Shown here piece after piece: positions 756 to 10,165 of a DNA stretch of 10,184 nucleotides. Origin of the DNA: Dehalococcoidia bacterium (GTDB lineage: Bacteria > Chloroflexota > Dehalococcoidia > GIF9 > AB-539-J10); assembly GCA_030627025.1 (NCBI GenBank), contig DAOUSX010000013.1, positions 1-10,184 of the forward strand, given 5' to 3'. A program made the translations under genes and the position numbers. The notes beneath the pieces are model-generated. The model was not told the origin of the DNA. It searched no databases and worked only from the letters and a program-made list of their open reading frames with translations. Position 1 is the stretch's first letter. Each line of letters starts with the position of its first letter.

Positions 756-827
756 AGCCAGCGAAGGGATTTGAACCCCCGACCTGCGGTTTACGAAACC
801 GCTGCTCTACCACTGAGCTACGCTGGC
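756..827 (-). tRNA. tRNA-Thr, anticodon CGU
   Basis: The reverse strand folds as a full cloverleaf of 72 nt. The acceptor stem GCCAGCG pairs with CGCTGGC (7 of 7). The D arm is GCTC-AGTGGTA-GAGC. The anticodon stem GCGGT/ACCGC encloses the loop TTCGTAA, so the anticodon is CGT and reads the Thr codon ACG. The T arm GGGGG-TTCAAAT-CCCTT has two G-U pairs. The discriminator base is U, and CCA is not encoded, so it must be added after transcription. The downstream gene's GGAGG begins two bases beyond the discriminator. Confidence 0.95.
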
Positions 828-1051: not shown

Positions 1052-1083
1052 GGGGATTGCCATGCCTTCGGCTCGCAATGACA
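1052..1083 (-). repeat. Half copy of the GTCATTGCGAG repeat
   Basis: On the minus strand this reads TGTCATTGCGAGCCGAAGGC followed by ATGGCAATCCCC. It matches the segment at 5360-5390 almost base for base (ATGG here, GTGG there). Only one arm of the palindrome is present. It lies upstream of the cmk promoter and does not overlap it. Confidence 0.75.
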
Positions 1084-1809: not shown

Positions 1810-2456
1810 CCCGATCTCAAAAGATTGCAGTAACCATCATTAAGCCTTTATATCATATTTTCCTCTCCTGGGAAGTTAGAGGCAGGAAAAACGTGCCTCC
1901 ATCTGGTCCACTCATCGTGGTCGCCAACCACGTGCATGTTATTGATGGCGAATTGCTGTTATTCGGCGTCTCCCGGTGGATAATTTACATGGCTAAAGAG
2001 CGGCTGTTCCATTATCCTATATTGAGGTCTCTCCTCCGCTGGGCAGGTGCTTTAGTAGTATATCGCCAGGGAACATTTAATGACACCAGAAAACTGCTCA
2101 AACAAGTTGAACAAACGCTGAACAAAGGTTCGGTTATCGGGATATTCCCTGAAGGGAAAAGAAGCCACCAGGGGAAACTTCAGGCTGGCAAGCCTGGGCT
2201 TGCTCTACTCGCCTCACGAATGCACATCCCCATCCTTCCCGTAGGCATCAGTGGCACGGATAAGATTCATGGGATAAGCTGGCTGTGGAAGCGTCCCCAC
2301 ATAGTCATCAACATCGGGAAGCCCTTCTATCTTCCCCAACCTGACGGCAGGCTAACCAAGCTGCAAAGGAAAACGCTAACCGATTTAATGATGCAAGAAA
2401 TAGCTACCCTCCTCCCCCATGAATATCAAGGTGTCTATACAGAACATGGAGATTGA
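1806..2456 (+). CDS. plsC: 1-acyl-sn-glycerol-3-phosphate acyltransferase
   Basis: The family transfers an acyl group to the sn-2 position of lysophosphatidate, giving phosphatidate for membrane phospholipids; it acts at the inner face of the membrane. The protein has 216 residues, near the compact end of the family. Motif I is NHVHVID (res. 41-47), the catalytic H-X4-D. Motif III is FPEGKRS (114-120), where the common Thr is Lys. The block IPILPVGISG (141-150) follows. No long transmembrane helix is obvious; the hydrophobic N-terminal stretch (res. 7-20) may be a membrane anchor. The start overlaps the cmk stop by 4 nt and the end overlaps the preferred ispH start by 11 nt, so translation is probably coupled. 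The acyl donor (acyl-ACP or acyl-CoA) cannot be told from sequence. Confidence 0.92.
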   Translation: MTRSQKIAVTIIKPLYHIFLSWEVRGRKNVPPSGPLIVVANHVHVIDGELLLFGVSRWIIYMAKERLFHYPILRSLLRWAGALVVYRQGTFNDTRKLLKQVEQTLNKGSVIGIFPEGKRSHQGKLQAGKPGLALLASRMHIPILPVGISGTDKIHGISWLWKRPHIVINIGKPFYLPQPDGRLTKLQRKTLTDLMMQEIATLLPHEYQGVYTEHGD

Positions 2457-3327
2457 AGTAGCTCGGGAAATCGGGTTGTGCTTTGGCATAAGGAGGGCAA
2501 TAAAGTTATTGACCGAAGCCGCAAGCGAATATGGAAAGGTGGAGATACTGGGGCCGGTGGCACATAACCAACGATTGGTGCAACAGCTCCACAAAGCAGG
2601 CGTGAATATGATAGCTAGCTTAGAGGAAACGACGGGGAAAGTTGTCGCCATACCCACTCACGGGGTGGGCCCTGATACGGTATTGCAAATGGAAGCACAC
2701 AAGCTCCACATCATTGACGCCACCTGTCCCATAGTCAAAAGAGCTCAATTGGCTGCCGCCAAACTGGCCCAGGCTGACTTTACCATCATTATCTTCGGAG
2801 AGGAAGAGCATTCTGAAGTAAAGGGACTGTTAGGCTGGGCACAGGGGAAAGGGATGGCTGCTCTCAGCATGAAACAAATTATCGTTCACACCCAAGGCAA
2901 TGTCATTGCGAGCGAAGCGAAGCAGTCTCTACTATCATCCCGCCTCGGCGTAATCTCCCAGACCACTCAAAGCAAAGCTTCTTTCACAGATTTCGCCACT
3001 CAGCTTGTCACTACCTTTATGCCGAAAACCGCTGAGATACGCATCATCAACACCCTGTGTCACGCAATACAGGCGAGGCTGGAAACAGCAACAAAGCTTG
3101 CCCGAAAAAGCCAGCTCGTCATAGTAATAGGAGGGCATGATAGTGCTAATACCAAACGACTTGCTGAAGCTTGCTCCTCCATTGTGGAAACTCACCTAGT
3201 GGAAACAGCGGAAGAGATAGCCCAATCCTGGCTTGATGGTAAGCACCGCATCGGCATTACCGCTGGAGCATCCACCCCTGATGAAGCGATACAAGAGGTA
3301 ATAGCAAAACTAAATTCCTTAGCTTAA
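2446..3327 (+). CDS. ispH: 4-hydroxy-3-methylbut-2-enyl diphosphate reductase (IspH/LytB)
   Basis: This is the last enzyme of the MEP isoprenoid pathway; it reduces HMBPP to IPP and DMAPP with a 4Fe-4S cluster. Numbered from the preferred start, the cluster cysteines are Cys12 (GLCFGIRRAI), Cys94 (DATCPIVKRA) and Cys205 (NTLCHAIQAR). Substrate residues are His40 (GPVAHN), His72 (THG), His122 and Glu124 (EHSEVKG), the TT of SQTTQS (173-174), Ser233 and Asn235 (HDSANTKRL) and Ser276 (AGASTPD). ATG at 2446 is preferred because MEIEVAREIGLCFG matches the family N-terminus and AAGGTG lies upstream at 2428-2433; ATG at 2419 would add nine residues and has no ribosome binding site. Residues about 152-161 (NVIASEAKQS) are encoded by an intergenic-type repeat, an in-frame insertion in a variable loop before SQTTQS. 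All catalytic residues remain, so the enzyme is probably active. Confidence 0.95.
   Translation: MEIEVAREIGLCFGIRRAIKLLTEAASEYGKVEILGPVAHNQRLVQQLHKAGVNMIASLEETTGKVVAIPTHGVGPDTVLQMEAHKLHIIDATCPIVKRAQLAAAKLAQADFTIIIFGEEEHSEVKGLLGWAQGKGMAALSMKQIIVHTQGNVIASEAKQSLLSSRLGVISQTTQSKASFTDFATQLVTTFMPKTAEIRIINTLCHAIQARLETATKLARKSQLVIVIGGHDSANTKRLAEACSSIVETHLVETAEEIAQSWLDGKHRIGITAGASTPDEAIQEVIAKLNSLA
2901..2928 (+). repeat. GTCATTGCGAG repeat half inserted inside ispH
   Basis: The first 20 bases, TGTCATTGCGAGCGAAGCGA, differ by one base from the intergenic copy at 9240-9259, and the similarity continues through AGCAGTCT against AGCAATCC. Inside ispH it is read in frame as NVIASEAKQS. Its length and frame have preserved the gene. 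Confidence 0.85.
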
Positions 3328-3361
3328 TATCCAGCCATCATGCTTGGTTCCCGGTCTACAT

Positions 3362-3460
3362 TGTCATTGCGAGCCACTTCTACGTCATTCTGAGCGTAGC
3401 GAAGCAATCCTGAGGCAAATAGCGATGAGATTGCTTCGGCCCTGCGTGCCTCGCAATGAC
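3362..3460. repeat. Palindromic repeat copy 1 of the GTCATTGCGAG family
   Basis: The gap between ispH and the HIT gene (3328-3623) consists almost wholly of repeats. This one begins with a truncated unit at 3362-3375, then a full unit at 3384-3460 with ends GTCATTCTGAG and CTCGCAATGAC. Inside, CGAAGCAATC (3400-3409) pairs perfectly with GATTGCTTCG (3429-3438) around a loop containing GAGGCAAATAGCGATGAG (3412-3429). No T-run follows, so it is not a standard terminator, although a transcript would fold here. Confidence 0.85.
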
Positions 3461-3493
3461 AATAAGAGGAGTTATGGCGAACGCCCTCCCTCG

Positions 3494-3608
3494 GTCATTC
3501 TGAGCCGAAGCTCTGAGCAAAGCGAAGAGGTAGCGAAGAATCTTATGACGCGCAACACAAGCCTCACAAATCAATCTGGAGATTTCCAGCCTTTGGCTTC
3601 AGAATGAC
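3494..3608. repeat. 115-bp MITE-like element with terminal inverted repeats
   Basis: The ends are inverted: GTCATTCTGA-GCCGAAG (3494-3510) pairs with CTTTGGC-T-TCAGAATGAC (3591-3608), 17 pairs with one G-T and one bulged T. The interior has CGAAGAGG and TAGCGAAGAATC sub-repeats on the left and sequence on the right not shared with the other copies. It encodes nothing convincing and lies 16 bp from the end of the HIT gene. Confidence 0.75.
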
Positions 3609-3973: not shown

Positions 3974-5185
3974 TTAACCTACTGCGCCTTCCTGTCGCAA
4001 TTTGTCAATCTCCTCCTTGGTGTAGCCCAAACTTGACAATATTTCATCGGTATGCTCACCAAGAAGAGGAGATAAGTTCCTCACTTTTCCCGGGGTGTCT
4101 GATAGCTTGGGCACTATGCCCAGTTGCCTGACTTTGCCTAAAGTAGGATGCTCCACGTCTACCACCATTTGACGATGAATTACCTGAGGGTCAGAGAAAA
4201 CCTCGTCCAGCGCATAAACTTTCCCCACAGGAATATCCTTTTCGGTTAGCAATTCAAACCACTCTTGTCTGGTCTTGGTCAAGAAAGTCTGCTCCAGGAA
4301 AGAGCGTATCTCATCCCATTTTTTATCCTCCGCCCTGCCCAGAATGTGGGTGACGGAAAAATGGTATGGGATAAAGTCCTCCCTACCAAATAATTTACAC
4401 AAGCTTTCCCAGAAATGAGGCTCAACACAGCCAATGGTCACATATTTGCCGTCCTTGGTTTCATATACTCCGTAATAAGGGTAGGCACCGTGGAGCGCCG
4501 TTTCCCCCCTCTTGGGAACCAATCCAGCAAGGAAATAGGCTACAGTAAACTCTCCCAGAAGAGATAAGGCTCCATCCATATAGGCCACATCTACATATTG
4601 CCCCTTGCCCGTTCTATCTCTGGCAAGCAAAGCCATCAGAATACCGATGACCCCGTATAAAGATGCTCCAGCAAGATCAGCAATTAGATTCATTGGAACA
4701 ACCGGCGGAGCCCCTGGCGGACCCATTAAGCCGAGAACCCCGGCCAGAGAGATATAGTTAATGTCGTGCCCCGAAAAATTACAATAAGGACCATCCTGAC
4801 CGTATCCACTAAGCGAACAATATACTATCTTAGGATTTGACTTGCTTACAGTGTCATAATCCACTCCTAAGTGCTTGACCACTCCCGGTCGGTAACCCTC
4901 GATAATAACATCTGCCTGCTGTGCCAAACGGTAGAATATCTGACGCCCCTTATCTGACCTGAGATTGAGCCCCATGCTCTTCTTATTGCGATTATAGGCA
5001 AAATAGGCTGCTTCAGCTCTCCTTTCTTCACCTTTTGGGGAAGGTCCTGCTCCAGCAAGGGGAGAAGGAGTAGGCATCTCAACCTTAATCACCTCGGCAC
5101 CAAAGTCTCCCAGTATCATGGTGCAAAAAGCGCCAGGCGCAAGCCCCGATAAATCCAGAATCTTAATCCCTTCCAAGGCTAACAT
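3974..5185 (-). CDS. CaiB/BaiF (class III) CoA transferase family, alpha-methylacyl-CoA racemase-like
   Basis: The 403-residue protein belongs to the class III CoA transferase fold, whose members exchange CoA between acids or racemise 2-methylacyl-CoA. Family marks are LDLSGLAPGAFCTMILGDFGA (10-30), NRNKKSMGLNL (65-75), the ADVIIEGYRPGV block (91-102), GHDINYISLAGVLG (139-152), NLIADLAGASL (166-176), GKGQYVDVAYMDG (193-205) and CVEPHFW (253-259). His140, Asp170 and Glu255 align by context with the His, Asp and Glu of mycobacterial alpha-methylacyl-CoA racemase; Asp141 could also match the transferase Asp. Substrate cannot be assigned. The start ATG at 5185 has AGGAGG just upstream (5190-5195). 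Residues about 38-55 (TPSPLAGAGPSPKGEER) form a Pro/Gly-rich stretch that looks inserted. The gene heads a two-gene operon with the HIT protein. Confidence 0.88.
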   Translation of the reverse strand: MLALEGIKILDLSGLAPGAFCTMILGDFGAEVIKVEMPTPSPLAGAGPSPKGEERRAEAAYFAYNRNKKSMGLNLRSDKGRQIFYRLAQQADVIIEGYRPGVVKHLGVDYDTVSKSNPKIVYCSLSGYGQDGPYCNFSGHDINYISLAGVLGLMGPPGAPPVVPMNLIADLAGASLYGVIGILMALLARDRTGKGQYVDVAYMDGALSLLGEFTVAYFLAGLVPKRGETALHGAYPYYGVYETKDGKYVTIGCVEPHFWESLCKLFGREDFIPYHFSVTHILGRAEDKKWDEIRSFLEQTFLTKTRQEWFELLTEKDIPVGKVYALDEVFSDPQVIHRQMVVDVEHPTLGKVRQLGIVPKLSDTPGKVRNLSPLLGEHTDEILSSLGYTKEEIDKLRQEGAVG

Positions 5186-5310: not shown

Positions 5311-5589
5311 GCCCTTTTGTGTCATTGCCTGCCCTTTTATGTCATTGCCACTTTTTTGTTGTCATTGCGAGCCGAAGGCGTGGCAATCTCTTTTAGACCC
5401 TTCGCTATCGCTCAGGGTGACAAAAAAGGATGTCATTGCCTGCCCTTTTATGTCATTGCGAGCCCTTCGCTCCTTGTCATTCTGAGGGAGCAAAGAGACC
5501 GAAGAATCTCGCTCAGGACAGGCTCCGCGAAGCAATCCCGAGGCAAATAGCGATGAGTTTGCTTCAGCACTAAAGTCCCTCGCAATGAC
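5311..5589. repeat. Repeat cluster 2 with 20-bp periodic GTCATTGC units
   Basis: This cluster fills most of the divergent gap 5186-5833. GTCATTGC recurs at 5321, 5341, 5361, 5432 and 5452, and GTCATTCTGAG at 5476. A 29-bp stretch at 5320-5348 is repeated exactly at 5431-5459. A sub-unit 5361-5421 is bounded by GTCATTGCGAG and CTCAGGGTGAC. A full hairpin unit follows: CGAAGCAATC (5528-5537) and GTTTGCTTCA (5557-5566) flank the loop GAGGCAAATAGCGATGAG (5540-5557), and the unit ends CTCGCAATGAC at 5589. Several units appear nested or joined. No plausible gene is present. Confidence 0.85.
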
Positions 5590-5833: not shown

Positions 5834-6799
5834 ATGTATAACAGTATAACGGATGTCCCCGGAATCAAGGTAGGGCACTATACCGATAGAGAAGGAATGA
5901 CCGGCTGCACCGTTGTTCTTTGTGAACAGGGAGCGGTGGCCGGAGTCGATGTCAGTGGCTCAGCCCCGGGGACAAGGGAGACTGATGTGCTTCGTCCTGG
6001 AAACCTGGTGGAAAAAGTCCACGCCATTCTTCTCAGTGGAGGCAGTGCTTTTGGTTTACAGGCGGCTGGGGGTGTCATGAAATACCTTGAGGAGCGAGGA
6101 ATCGGTCACCAGACCGCTGCTGGCAAGGTTCCCATCGTTCCCGCAGCTATTATTTACGATTTAGTGGTGGGTGACCCAAAGGCGAGACCTGACGCTGATC
6201 ATGGCTATCAAGCCTGCCTCGCTGCCACTGATGGAGAAGTCCCTGAAGGATGCGTCGGCGCAGGAACTGGAGCAGCGGTGGGAAAGATTCTCGGCATAGA
6301 TAAAGCCACCAAAAGTGGCTTGGGAACCGCCAGTCAGAAACTAACCGATGATGTTATAGTGGCTGCCCTGGCAGTGGAAAACGCCGTTGGCGACGTTATT
6401 CACCCCAAAACAAGGGAAATCATCGCTGGTCCCCATCGCTCTGATGGAGACGGTTTTTGGAGCACTTCAGAATTGTTGAAGGGCGCGCAATTCAAAGGAG
6501 CAGGCCTCTTGCCCAACACCACAGTCGCTGTAGTAGCTACTAACGCTCAGCTTGATAAAGCACAAGCGAACAAGCTGGCGCAGATGGCAGTAGCAGGCAT
6601 AGCCCGCACTGTTGACCCTTACCTTACCATGTTTGATGGCGATGTAATCTTCACCCTTTCCCTGGGAGAAAAGAAATGTGACATCACCTTACTCGGCTTG
6701 GTAGCCGCTGAGGTGATGTCCACTGCAATAGTTAGAGCGATAACTAAATCCGAGACGATGGCAGGCATATCTGCCAGCAAGGTGGCAACATCATGTTAG
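5834..6799 (+). CDS. P1/DmpA-family (S58) autoproteolytic peptidase or amidohydrolase
   Basis: From ATG 5834 the protein has 321 residues, typical for the family. Recognisable blocks are SITDVPGIKVGHYTD (4-18), HAILLSGGSAFGLQAAGGVM (63-82), GCVGAGTGAAVGKI (139-152), LPNTTVAVVATNA (226-238), MAVAGIARTVDP (251-262) and FDGDVIF (267-273). Members of this N-terminal nucleophile family cut themselves before a Ser or Thr, which then becomes the catalytic residue; here Asn228-Thr229 is the expected site. Known members include the aminopeptidase DmpA, beta-alanine-releasing BapA and the pantetheine hydrolase ThnT. Being first in a pantothenate operon, it may supply beta-alanine or pantothenate (inference). 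A longer TTG start at 5738 would translate the terminator hairpin and is rejected. TTG at 5828 (MAMYNS) is possible, being 10 nt from the AGGAGGG. The stop overlaps the next gene by 7 nt. Confidence 0.88.
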   Translation: MYNSITDVPGIKVGHYTDREGMTGCTVVLCEQGAVAGVDVSGSAPGTRETDVLRPGNLVEKVHAILLSGGSAFGLQAAGGVMKYLEERGIGHQTAAGKVPIVPAAIIYDLVVGDPKARPDADHGYQACLAATDGEVPEGCVGAGTGAAVGKILGIDKATKSGLGTASQKLTDDVIVAALAVENAVGDVIHPKTREIIAGPHRSDGDGFWSTSELLKGAQFKGAGLLPNTTVAVVATNAQLDKAQANKLAQMAVAGIARTVDPYLTMFDGDVIFTLSLGEKKCDITLLGLVAAEVMSTAIVRAITKSETMAGISASKVATSC

Positions 6800-7512
6800 A
6801 GATTGGCTTTATTGGCACAGGAACCGTAGGAACAGCTCTGGCAACAAGGCTCTCCCGGAAAAGGGCCAGAATAATTGCAGTATCCAGCCGGAACTTAACC
6901 TCAGCAGAAAGGCTGGCTAGTTCCCTACCTCATTGCCGTGCCTATTCATCGCCACAGGAGGTAGCTGATGCCGCTGAGTTAATCTTCATCACCACCCCTG
7001 ACGATGCCATCCCGGAAGTGATTAATGAAGTCCACTGGCATCCCGGTAAGAGTGTGGTGCACTGCAGTGGCGCTCATTCACTTGATATCCTCAAGCCAGC
7101 TGAGCAAGCAGGCGCTAATACAGGCTCCTTCCATCCTCTACAAACTTTCGCAAGTATTAAACAAGCTGTGGAAAACCTCCCTGGCTCCACCTTCGCCCTC
7201 GAAGCTGAGGAACCTCTTCTATCAACGCTAAAAAAACTGGCTTCCCTCCTGGATGGCGAGTGGATAGTACTTAAGCCAGGAGACAAGGTGATTTATCACG
7301 CCGGAGCTGTGTTTGCCTGTAATTACATGGTAACTTTGGTTGAGCTAGCTATAGATTTATGGCAAACCCTTGGAGTGCCCCCGGAAAAAGCAACCAGAGC
7401 CCTCATCCCCTTGCTGCAAGGAACAGTGAACAACATCGATAATATCGGTTTGCCCGATTGCCTCACCGGGCCTGTATCCCGCGGTGATTTGGGCACTATA
7501 AGCAACATCTAA
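6793..7512 (+). CDS. Rossmann/DUF2520 NAD(P)-binding oxidoreductase, frameshifted near the C-terminus
   Basis: The N-terminal Rossmann domain shows GFIGTGTVGTALA (5-17), SSRN (31-34) and FITTPDDAIPEV (65-76). The C-terminal DUF2520 domain shows CSGAHSLDIL (91-100), GSFHPLQTFA (111-120), YHAGAVFACNYMVTL (168-182) and LTGPVSRGD (224-232). The frame stops at 239 residues just after RGDLGTIS, where the family normally continues for about 50 residues. That continuation is present in another frame from 7503 to 7661. Adding one base near 7502 restores a 289-residue protein, the normal length. The substrate is unproven. Its place between the hydrolase and panD, in a locus with panB, panC and panD but no panE, makes ketopantoate reduction a plausible role. 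The break could be a real mutation or an assembly error. Confidence 0.85.
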   Translation: MLEIGFIGTGTVGTALATRLSRKRARIIAVSSRNLTSAERLASSLPHCRAYSSPQEVADAAELIFITTPDDAIPEVINEVHWHPGKSVVHCSGAHSLDILKPAEQAGANTGSFHPLQTFASIKQAVENLPGSTFALEAEEPLLSTLKKLASLLDGEWIVLKPGDKVIYHAGAVFACNYMVTLVELAIDLWQTLGVPPEKATRALIPLLQGTVNNIDNIGLPDCLTGPVSRGDLGTISNI

Positions 7513-8971: not shown

Positions 8972-9010
8972 ATTCCCTCTCCCTTGACGGGAGAGGATCA
9001 AGGTGAGGGT
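8972..9010 (+). repeat. CCCTCTCCC hairpin repeat, copy A
   Basis: This 39-bp unit matches copy B at 9274-9312 in 36 positions. CCTCTCCC (8976-8983) and GGGAGAGG (8989-8996) form a perfect stem around TTGAC. A GGTGAGGGT tail follows that resembles a ribosome binding site, but no gene starts there. Confidence 0.8.
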
Positions 9011-9048: not shown

Positions 9049-9268
9049 GTCACTGCGGGCAAAGCGAAGCACCCCCGAGGCAAATAGCGATGAGATTGCT
9101 TCGGCATTCCATGCCTCGCAATGACAATGAGGGAAGTCATTGCCAGCACCCTCCCTCTGTCATTCTGAGGGAGTACTTCGTTTTTGGTCATTCTGAGCGT
9201 AGCGAAGAATCTGGTGCAGCTCAGGGTGACAAAAAAAGATGTCATTGCGAGCGAAGCAAAGCAATCCC
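9049..9268. repeat. Repeat cluster 3 between panB and panC
   Basis: The 8899-9322 gap holds no gene. A full unit at 9049-9125 has ends GTCACTGCGGG and CTCGCAATGAC and the loop GAGGCAAATAGCGATGAG (9077-9094); its left inner arm is decayed. Next come GTCATTGCC (9136), GTCATTCTGAG (9159), a 44-bp unit 9187-9230 with ends GTCATTCTGAG and CTCAGGGTGAC, and a half unit 9240-9268. From 9077 to about 9170 it parallels the ispH-side cluster 3412-3505, indicating that these two clusters descend from the same composite. Confidence 0.85.
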
Positions 9269-9273
9269 ATTAG

Positions 9274-9312
9274 ATTCCCTCTCCCTTGACGGGAGAGGGC
9301 CAGGGTGAGGGT
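9274..9312 (+). repeat. CCCTCTCCC hairpin repeat, copy B, abutting panC
   Basis: CCCTCTCCC (9277-9285) pairs perfectly with GGGAGAGGG (9291-9299) around TTGAC. The tail GGGTGAGGGT then extends by another GAGGGTGA, which ends 2 nt before the panC ATG. With copy A it brackets repeat cluster 3 as direct repeats. Confidence 0.82.
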
Positions 9313-9322
9313 GAGGGTGAAA
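9311..9322 (+). promoter_or_regulatory. panC ribosome binding site derived from repeat tail
   Basis: GAGG (9313-9316) lies 6 nt before ATG 9323, and GGTGA (9316-9320) lies 2 nt before it. The sequence is an extension of the GGTGAGGGT tail of repeat copy B. GTG codons at 9305, 9311 and 9317 are in frame and are alternative starts, but ATG 9323 best fits the family N-terminus. Confidence 0.55.
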
Positions 9323-10165
9323 ATGCAAGTAGTAAAGACCGTTACCGAAATGAGAAAACTAAGGCGCCAGCTCAATGAGCCTGTCGGCTTCGTGCCTACC
9401 ATGGGCTATTTCCACGAAGGTCACCTAAGCCTGGTAAGGCAGGCGAGGAAGGAAAATTCCACAGTTGTGGTCAGCATCTTCGTCAATCCCACCCAGTTCG
9501 GACCTGGTGAGGATTTCCAAGATTATCCTCGAGATCTTGAGCGTGACCTTGAACTACTGGAAAGGGAGAAGGTGGATATCGTCTTCGTGCCCTCTGAGGA
9601 GGAGATGTATCCATCGGGATTTAGCAGTTGGATAGACGTAGAAGGGGTAACCGAAAGGCTTGAAGGTGCATCCAGACTAGAACATTTCCGCGGAGTGATC
9701 ACAGTTTGTGCCAAGCTATTCAACATCATCCAGCCAACCAGAGCCTACTTCGGTCAGAAGGATGCCCAGCAAGCAGTGGTGATCAAAAAGATGGTGGCTG
9801 ATTTAAGCATGAACCTGGAAATCACAGTTGTGTCCACAATTAGGGAGAGCGACGGCCTGGCTATGAGCAGCCGCAATACCTACCTCAACCCTGAAGAACG
9901 CCAGGCAGCTATCGTCCTATTTAGAGCTCTTTCCCTTGCCAGGGAATTATGGCAAGGTGGGGAGAAAGACGCCGATAAAATTCGTCATGAGATGACCTCA
10001 CTCATCCAGAAAGAACCACTAGCCCGAATCGACTATGTCAGCATCGCCGATGCCAACACCCTGGAAGAGCTAAAGGCAATTAACCGCCCCGCCCTAGCCT
10101 CTTTAGCCGTCCGTATAGGCAAAACGAGATTGATAGATAACGTGCTTCTAAAAGGCGGAAAATGA
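9323..10165 (+). CDS. panC: Pantothenate synthetase (pantoate-beta-alanine ligase)
   Basis: PanC joins pantoate and beta-alanine with ATP through a pantoyl-adenylate, in the cytoplasm. From ATG 9323 it has 280 residues, normal for the family. Motifs are VPTMGYFHEGHLSLV (24-38, the HIGH-like box with His31 and His34), VNPTQFGPGEDF (54-65), YPRDLERDLELL (68-79), EHFRGVITVCAKLFN (120-134), YFGQKDAQQ (142-150), and the KMSKS-like SDGLAMSSRNTYL (176-188). The C-terminal domain ends with RIDYVSIAD (235-243) and TRLIDNVLL (268-276). A start at GTG 9305 would add six residues read from the repeat; it is not needed. The gene is separated from panB by a 424-nt repeat cluster, so it may depend on read-through or on its own promoter, which I do not see. 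Confidence 0.97.
   Translation: MQVVKTVTEMRKLRRQLNEPVGFVPTMGYFHEGHLSLVRQARKENSTVVVSIFVNPTQFGPGEDFQDYPRDLERDLELLEREKVDIVFVPSEEEMYPSGFSSWIDVEGVTERLEGASRLEHFRGVITVCAKLFNIIQPTRAYFGQKDAQQAVVIKKMVADLSMNLEITVVSTIRESDGLAMSSRNTYLNPEERQAAIVLFRALSLARELWQGGEKDADKIRHEMTSLIQKEPLARIDYVSIADANTLEELKAINRPALASLAVRIGKTRLIDNVLLKGGK

Follow-up and report, generated by a model that had tools for sequence, protein, structure and literature searches.

The window, that is, the whole stretch of 10,184 nucleotides of Dehalococcoidia DNA considered here, contains an ispH gene, coding for 4-hydroxy-3-methylbut-2-enyl diphosphate reductase, within which a piece of repeat DNA is read in frame (Table 1). This piece, GTCATTGCGAGCGAAGCGAAGCAGTC, differs at 2 of its 26 bases from a copy located between genes of the same window. 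A sequence-only reading of the DNA had claimed near-identity to an intergenic repeat at 9240-9268 and an in-frame reading as NVIASEAKQS within an intact gene; both observations are confirmed, and extended below. The segment, then placed at 2901-2928, is as described, but 2901 is the last base of the asparagine codon and the codons start at 2899. A 110-nt piece around the ispH copy matches 28 places in the genome by BLAST (E <= 0.001), itself included, and its best match outside its own locus reaches E 1.8e-8.

Table 1. Position of ispH, of the repeat within it and of related repeats in the window
Feature	Position	Strand	Remarks
ispH (4-hydroxy-3-methylbut-2-enyl diphosphate reductase)	2419..3327	+	intact 302-aa ORF with the insert; start codon putative
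26-nt repeat copy	2902..2927	+	one mismatch to the pattern form of the 26-mer, GTCATTGCGAGCGAAGCGAAGCAATC; in-frame reading VIASEAKQ(S)
NVIASEAKQS codons	2899..2928	+	residues 161-170; low-confidence loop (residues 159-168, pLDDT <50)
Intergenic copy of the 26-nt repeat	9241..9266	+	24/26 identical to the ispH copy
Intergenic full-length element	3360..3466	+	inverted ends TGTCATTGCGAG ... CTCGCAATGACA; 83-nt piece z -3.20
Second intergenic full-length element	9049..9169	+	82% identical to 3384-3504
Arm of the same repeat family	1055..1083	-	97% complementary to 5360-5388
Intergenic composite repeat	5452..5538	+	frame-1 translation matches the P0047 IspH loop at 27/29 residues

Elsewhere in the window, a tRNA-Thr (anticodon CGT; 756-827, minus strand) is the sole Rfam match at gathering scores. 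By eye, ORF 6793-7512 (plus strand) seems to run on in another frame as far as about 7661, a sign of a frameshift near 7500, whether real or due to assembly. A second repeat family (ATTCCCTCTCCCTTGACGGGAGAGG...) has copies at 8972-9010 and 9274-9312, 92% identical, which flank the repeat cluster ahead of ORF 9305-10165. In the CoA-transferase-like ORF 3974-5185, PTPSPLAGAGPSPKGEERR (5018-5077, minus strand) resembles a repeat from a different family in translation and is perhaps a second in-frame insertion of repeat DNA in the window.

The enzyme was also said to be intact and to keep all its cysteine and substrate residues, and so it does. It matches TIGR00216 with 229.8 bits (cut-off 187.85), and Pfam LYTB spans residues 12-298. 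Cys21, Cys103, Cys214, His49, His81, His131, Glu133, Thr182, Ser242, Asn244 and Ser285, whose predicted catalytic roles are those of Escherichia coli IspH, are all present and invariant in 61 aligned sequences. The AlphaFold model (61 aligned sequences) has a mean pLDDT of 90.4, with residues 159-168 below 50 and partly drawn as helix ends; in that of P0073, an IspH with a composite insert, the mean is 85.9 and residues 154-191 fall below 50, the remainder being high. Foldseek retrieves IspH structures with the window model (best 3dnf_B, E 2.6e-29; TM-score of about 0.85 with 3szu), and sequence alignment with 3dnf puts the insert in a variable stretch ahead of the strand leading to QTTQ. From W to RLG, the loop with the insert has 38 residues in the window, 35 and 65 in the congeneric genomes G006 and G004, and 26 in the commonest unfilled forms; the net gain is therefore 12, 9 and 39 residues, respectively, and not the ten first proposed. 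In 54 window-type IspH, mean pairwise identity is 0.788 over the ten insert columns, 0.840 over the rest of the loop and 0.944 over the 230 columns outside it, 24 of which are conserved less than the insert's mean. This lower conservation than in the remaining IspH suggests that the insert is tolerated rather than functional; as a point against, it is only somewhat less conserved than its loop neighbours.

The loop in related IspH proteins

ispH was found in three of the four genomes of the genus (those of the window, G004 and G006), and not in G005, which is 61% complete. Among 39 family IspH rows read from genomes (L012, not read there, is excluded), these three have the VIAS..AKQ insert and the other 36 are without it in that frame. 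The segment DNA of the window and of G006 is identical at 25 of 27 nucleotides, against 0.81 for the flanking codons, and the G004 insert begins with the same letters before becoming composite. Diverged DNA at this place in all close relatives would have spoken against an insertion; in the congeners it is instead near-identical. The other objection, that relatives without repeats might have an equally long loop of related sequence, falls for the most part: where the repeat is lacking, loops are mostly shorter and of unrelated sequence, and longer ones elsewhere are often repeat-like, but a few (P0091, P0093, L026 and L033) are long, without a recognised source. On the whole, the first reading of the segment as an insertion is supported.

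Even very close relatives can differ in having a filled, an unfilled or an enlarged loop. Among the best 120 of 5035 IspH protein matches, dozens have a window-type loop with the insert, P0075-P0090 lack it (MKQPPPARLG or VKQPLPSRLG), and in four (P0047, P0050, P0056 and P0073) the insert is much longer. As a case in point, P0059 and P0060, which are filled, differ from P0078, of the MKQ form, at 1 of 269 positions outside the loop. The P0090 (VKQPLPSRLG) and MKQPPPARLG alleles can be read either as unfilled sites or as deletion remnants; we set aside the view that MKQPPPARLG loops are plain empty sites, as P0090 and the K-Q that ends the repeat peptide are compatible with remnants of a deletion.

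Loops were scored against the repeat in 270 of 305 rows, the other 35 having no readable loop; with a match taken as a score of at least 25 and a shuffle p <= 0.01, 83 loops match frame 1, 9 frame 2 and 178 neither. The frame-1 matches include six short MKQ loops, as well as six rows outside the genus clade (P0096, P0099, P0100, P0102, P0103 and P0173; protein level only), which leaves uncertain how old the frame-1 insertions are and how many there were. Other genera have SLRAERSNL or a similar peptide in this IspH loop, a frame-2 reading of the same repeat. The corresponding DNA is present in G019 (L012), G016 (L014) and G017 (L016), with a shuffle p of 0.002 each in a test of 15 loci, the copies of L014 and L016 being partly decayed; L017, L020 and L023 are borderline in this test (p 0.044-0.052). 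At the DNA level, 5 of the 39 family loci read pass at p <= 0.01; L012, which is not among these 39, passes in the 15-locus test. Fifty further loci, at least one of which (L108) is of the same family, comprise 31 without a readable loop and 19 readable ones, none matching the repeat DNA. The repeat is thus present there in a second frame in three genomes from two other genera, so that insertion at this loop is, to judge from the sequences, recurrent. The loops of P0114 and P0115, two IspH from outside the genus clade, end in PHxPLLGRGRLG and may contain a different repeat family at the same place.

A tree of 110 IspH rows, built with the loop columns removed, counts only for its coarse picture, because it is a quick tree with 49 of 106 inner branches open and its outgroup does not form one side of a branch. 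The genus of the window forms a clade of 41 rows (SH-aLRT 96), all of the frame-1, composite or MKQ type, and in the window's sub-clade all 20 tree rows have the insert, short or composite. The six loop states need at least 26 changes over the 110 rows. The composite is found in three separate sub-clades; in P0056, its own clade's 5' residues, DNVTAS, still precede it. A similar composite lies between genes of the window: its translation agrees with the loop of P0047 at 27 of 29 residues and with that of P0050 at 26 of 29. In the ispH of G004, the first 61 nt of the insert region match window positions 5450-5510 at 60 of 61, and the end of the insert matches 5517-5537 at 20 of 21, the middle having no match to that intergenic copy. 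It is possible that the composite arose by new insertion or by exchange with other copies.

The repeat family and its other host proteins

At up to three mismatches, the 26-mer has 32 copies in the window's genome (G000), 39 in G004, 20 in G005 and 48 in G006. The reversed pattern has none in any of the four, which rules out chance similarity. The exact 26-mer is present in 6 of 151 sampled Chloroflexota genomes, the window's own among them, and 14 copies lie in a single genome from a different family of the order. The unit is about 27 nt long, TGTC- or CGTC-ATTGCGAGCGAAGCGAAGCAATC, the base ahead of the copies examined being mostly T and in some cases C, and longer forms add an inverted second arm or a further unit. 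A palindrome had been claimed in ispH. The 29-nt unit taken from the gene folds no better than shuffled sequences (z 0.28), which rules out the 27-nt unit as a hairpin by itself, and the 116-nt composite gives z -0.42, while the 83-nt intergenic form with its inverted second arm does fold better (z -3.20; 0 of 200 shuffles). The 27-nt segment in ispH is thus a single arm of the palindrome. As for the mover, a RAYT transposase finds no support: among the four genus genomes (61-94% complete), Y1_Tnp (PF01797) is absent from G000, G004 and G006, and G005 has the sole match, a partial one (31.3 bits, cut-off 23). A plasmid search returned two Novosphingobium records (NZ_CP017076.1 and NZ_CP039697.1) with 73-75% matches to the full-length intergenic element, a hint of such repeats in other phyla.

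The guess that these repeats are a general source of peptide insertions holds. Of 139 copies in the genus, 113 were inspected (32/32 in G000, 48/48 in G006, 23/39 in G004 and 10/20 in G005); about 10 of 32 in G000 and 10 of 48 in G006 lie in frame inside conserved proteins, the others being intergenic or unassigned. In G000, the hosts are IspH, Mfd, ProS, RuvX, an ECF transporter component, a solute-binding lipoprotein (N-terminal region, frame 2, with a putative start), two methyltransferases, one read in the antisense frame as LLRFARND and the other, pterin-binding, in frame 2, and a double ABC ATPase with two copies in its linker. Those of G006 are IspH, a HAD hydrolase, PheT, a pterin-binding methyltransferase, CarA, a lipoprotein, and two ABC proteins sharing four copies; the methyltransferase and the ABC proteins were placed by alignment to G000 rather than by Pfam, and the lipoprotein, whose left flank is too short for the flank filter, was counted from the copy list. 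Further hosts in G004 are PyrC, hit at two sites, HisC and a phosphotransferase-like protein whose Pfam score is below the cut-off. Three reading frames are in use, one of them antisense. A DUF429 protein (L064, L181 and L066) was left uncounted because the repeat may precede its true start, and L205, without a Pfam match, was left out as well.

In alignments with solved ProRS, PyrC, HisC, methyltransferase and PheT structures, the peptide appears as extra residues at or beside gaps. The same positions are often occupied by different peptides. Of the 20 genomes for which there is a PheT row, only G004 and G006 are filled at site 1. Site 2 could be read in 17 of them: repeat-like inserts occupy it in G000, G005, G006 and, in another genus, G042 (VIASEAKQS), while G014 and G015 have unclear extra residues and the other 11 have nothing; this second insert reads VIASPSSPSLRGAQATKQS in G006 (L077/L262), VIATPSS... 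in G000 (L263) and differently in G005. Repeat-like peptides that differ between genomes sit at one position of ProS (all four genus genomes), of Mfd (three) and of CarA (three); one TAA also falls within the ProS matches of G004, G005 and G006. In the CarA linker, the same repeat is read in different frames, as VIASAAKQS in G006 (L187) and SLRAERSNL in G004 (L070), and RuvX of G004 has a shorter, related-looking peptide at the corresponding spot.

Origin, turnover and parallels

What best accounts for these observations is, very probably, a non-autonomous palindromic repeat family that inserts in frame into IspH and other proteins. In this Dehalococcoidia lineage, such repeats would enter the chromosome, moved presumably by some agent, and a stop-free arm landing with a length divisible by three in a surface loop or linker would leave a working protein, the copy surviving because the arm has no stop in five of its six frames. 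In ispH, the insertion that gave the loop its VIASEAKQS would date back to the base of the window's genus or further, and the same loop would have been hit in other genera in the second frame. Afterwards the copy would drift, grow into a composite in some lines and be absent in some very close relatives. Selection would mostly just remove harmful insertions, and exchange with other chromosomal copies or repeated insertion would drive the turnover.

Several other accounts have to be weighed, some of which are compatible with this one. An assembly artefact is so improbable that we regard it as ruled out: the window's genome (1.18 Mb, 66% complete, 204 contigs) is indeed a fragmentary metagenome assembly, but dozens of protein clusters, drawn from ncbi, ena, jgi and lgn, contain the insert, as do the genomes of three species. 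It is also very unlikely that the peptide was retained for helping IspH, for example in partner binding or stability. The filling of all 20 tree rows of the window's sub-clade would fit such a role, but the insert is less conserved than the remainder of the protein and modelled at low confidence, some rows have a longer peptide in its stead, and near-identical relatives in the sister sub-clade lack it. Whether certain loops are hit repeatedly is an evenly balanced matter. Different repeat-like peptides at the same spots of ProS, Mfd, CarA and PheT site 2 in congeners, and the two frames at the IspH loop, argue for such hotspots, although a preference for the target and the survival of insertions only where loops tolerate them are indistinguishable with the present data.

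Turnover by recombination, in which loop alleles are swapped or enlarged through gene conversion with other copies or strains, is compatible with the repeat-insertion account, and we give it a little less than an even chance. The composite found in three separate sub-clades, with P0056 retaining DNVTAS, the two ends of the G004 insert matching an intergenic copy of another species, and L040, which joins a filled 5' side to the PPPARLG 3' side of an unfilled allele, all point that way; but the shared ends are short (about 11-13 nt) and the middle of the G004 insert is unmatched. Third codon positions, summed over nine pairs (the CarA pair, read in different frames, is excluded, as are the two comparisons involving the second ABC gene of G006), are identical at 83 of 84 in the element at nine shared sites versus 1268 of 1549 in the flanks, a contrast that is only a hint, because both copies were found by the same 3-mismatch pattern and the comparison is biased accordingly. 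Moreover, separate insertions account more easily for the differing frames seen in the IspH of other genera and between the CarA proteins of G004 and G006. More tentatively still, and with rather more doubt than belief, one may see the loops as standing exchange slots where repeat peptides are inserted, enlarged, removed and swapped by recombination with the chromosomal pool, in several frames. If this were true, core enzymes of one species population would carry interchangeable loop segments.

Repeat insertion of this sort has close parallels in the palindromic elements of Rickettsia (RPE-1 to -3 and RPE-4, -6 and -7) and Wolbachia, short repeats which are likewise found both between genes and in frame inside conserved protein genes. 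Excerpts of three papers (PMC3767692, PMC2229807, PMC10969869) place RPE inserts at solvent-exposed places of conserved proteins; here too, low pLDDT and alignments with structures point to tolerated sites of predicted surface type in intact host proteins. For RPE-4/6/7, PMC3767692 reports different repeats at the same locus in orthologues, names PheT as one of the hosts and describes a frequent ATGAC motif; it leaves open the choice between hotspots and one diverged origin. The present unit ends with GTCAT, the complement of that motif, a comparison made at the motif level only. There are differences. RPE measure 105-146 bp (excerpt of PMC2229807), or 68-192 bp in the gene table of PMC3767692, whereas the usual coding insert here, in the window as in G006, is a single arm of about 27 nt and only composites are longer. 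The host lineage belongs to the Dehalococcoidia and is known from metagenome-assembled genomes, three frames are used, one of them antisense, and filled and unfilled forms occur among near-identical proteins. By analogy, the family appears to work like RPE; we do not claim membership among RPE proper, because its unit is about 27 nt long instead of 100-150 bp and the sequence comparison covers the motif only.

Other known repeats offer further parallels. The CGTC-tagged REP superfamily, as excerpts of PMC3733652 describe it, consists of small palindromic repeats with CGTC at one end, its CGTC-1 and CGTC-4 families including RPE-6 and RPE-4; these excerpts list CGTC repeats in Proteobacteria, Chlorobi, Bacteroidetes, Spirochaetes and Thermotogae, and Chloroflexi with GTAG rather than CGTC repeats. 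By contrast, the present unit mostly starts with TGTC and only sometimes with CGTC. ERIC, YPAL and other bacterial MITEs are non-autonomous and can fuse in frame with host genes (excerpt of PMC2229807); the units named there measure 127 and 168 bp, set here by description against one of about 27 nt.

In the excerpts of PMC2229807, PMC10969869 and PMC3767692, the in-frame palindromic repeats described come chiefly from Rickettsia and Wolbachia, and the excerpt of PMC10969869 calls such a mechanism in other prokaryotes conceivable. The open-access literature, most subscription papers being outside its scope, yielded nothing on in-frame palindromic repeats in Chloroflexi or Dehalococcoidia, and a text search with the first 11 letters of the repeat gave matches unrelated by title. 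Dehalococcoidia provide a documented case of such a process beyond Rickettsia and Wolbachia, and here the process reaches enzymes of isoprenoid, pyrimidine and histidine synthesis, of tRNA charging and of DNA repair. For annotators, peptides resembling VIASEAKQ, SLRAKRSN or LLRFARND can mark repeat DNA. Because filled and unfilled forms coexist among near-identical proteins, the entry of a repeat into a gene, its cost and its possible loss can be studied directly in this lineage.
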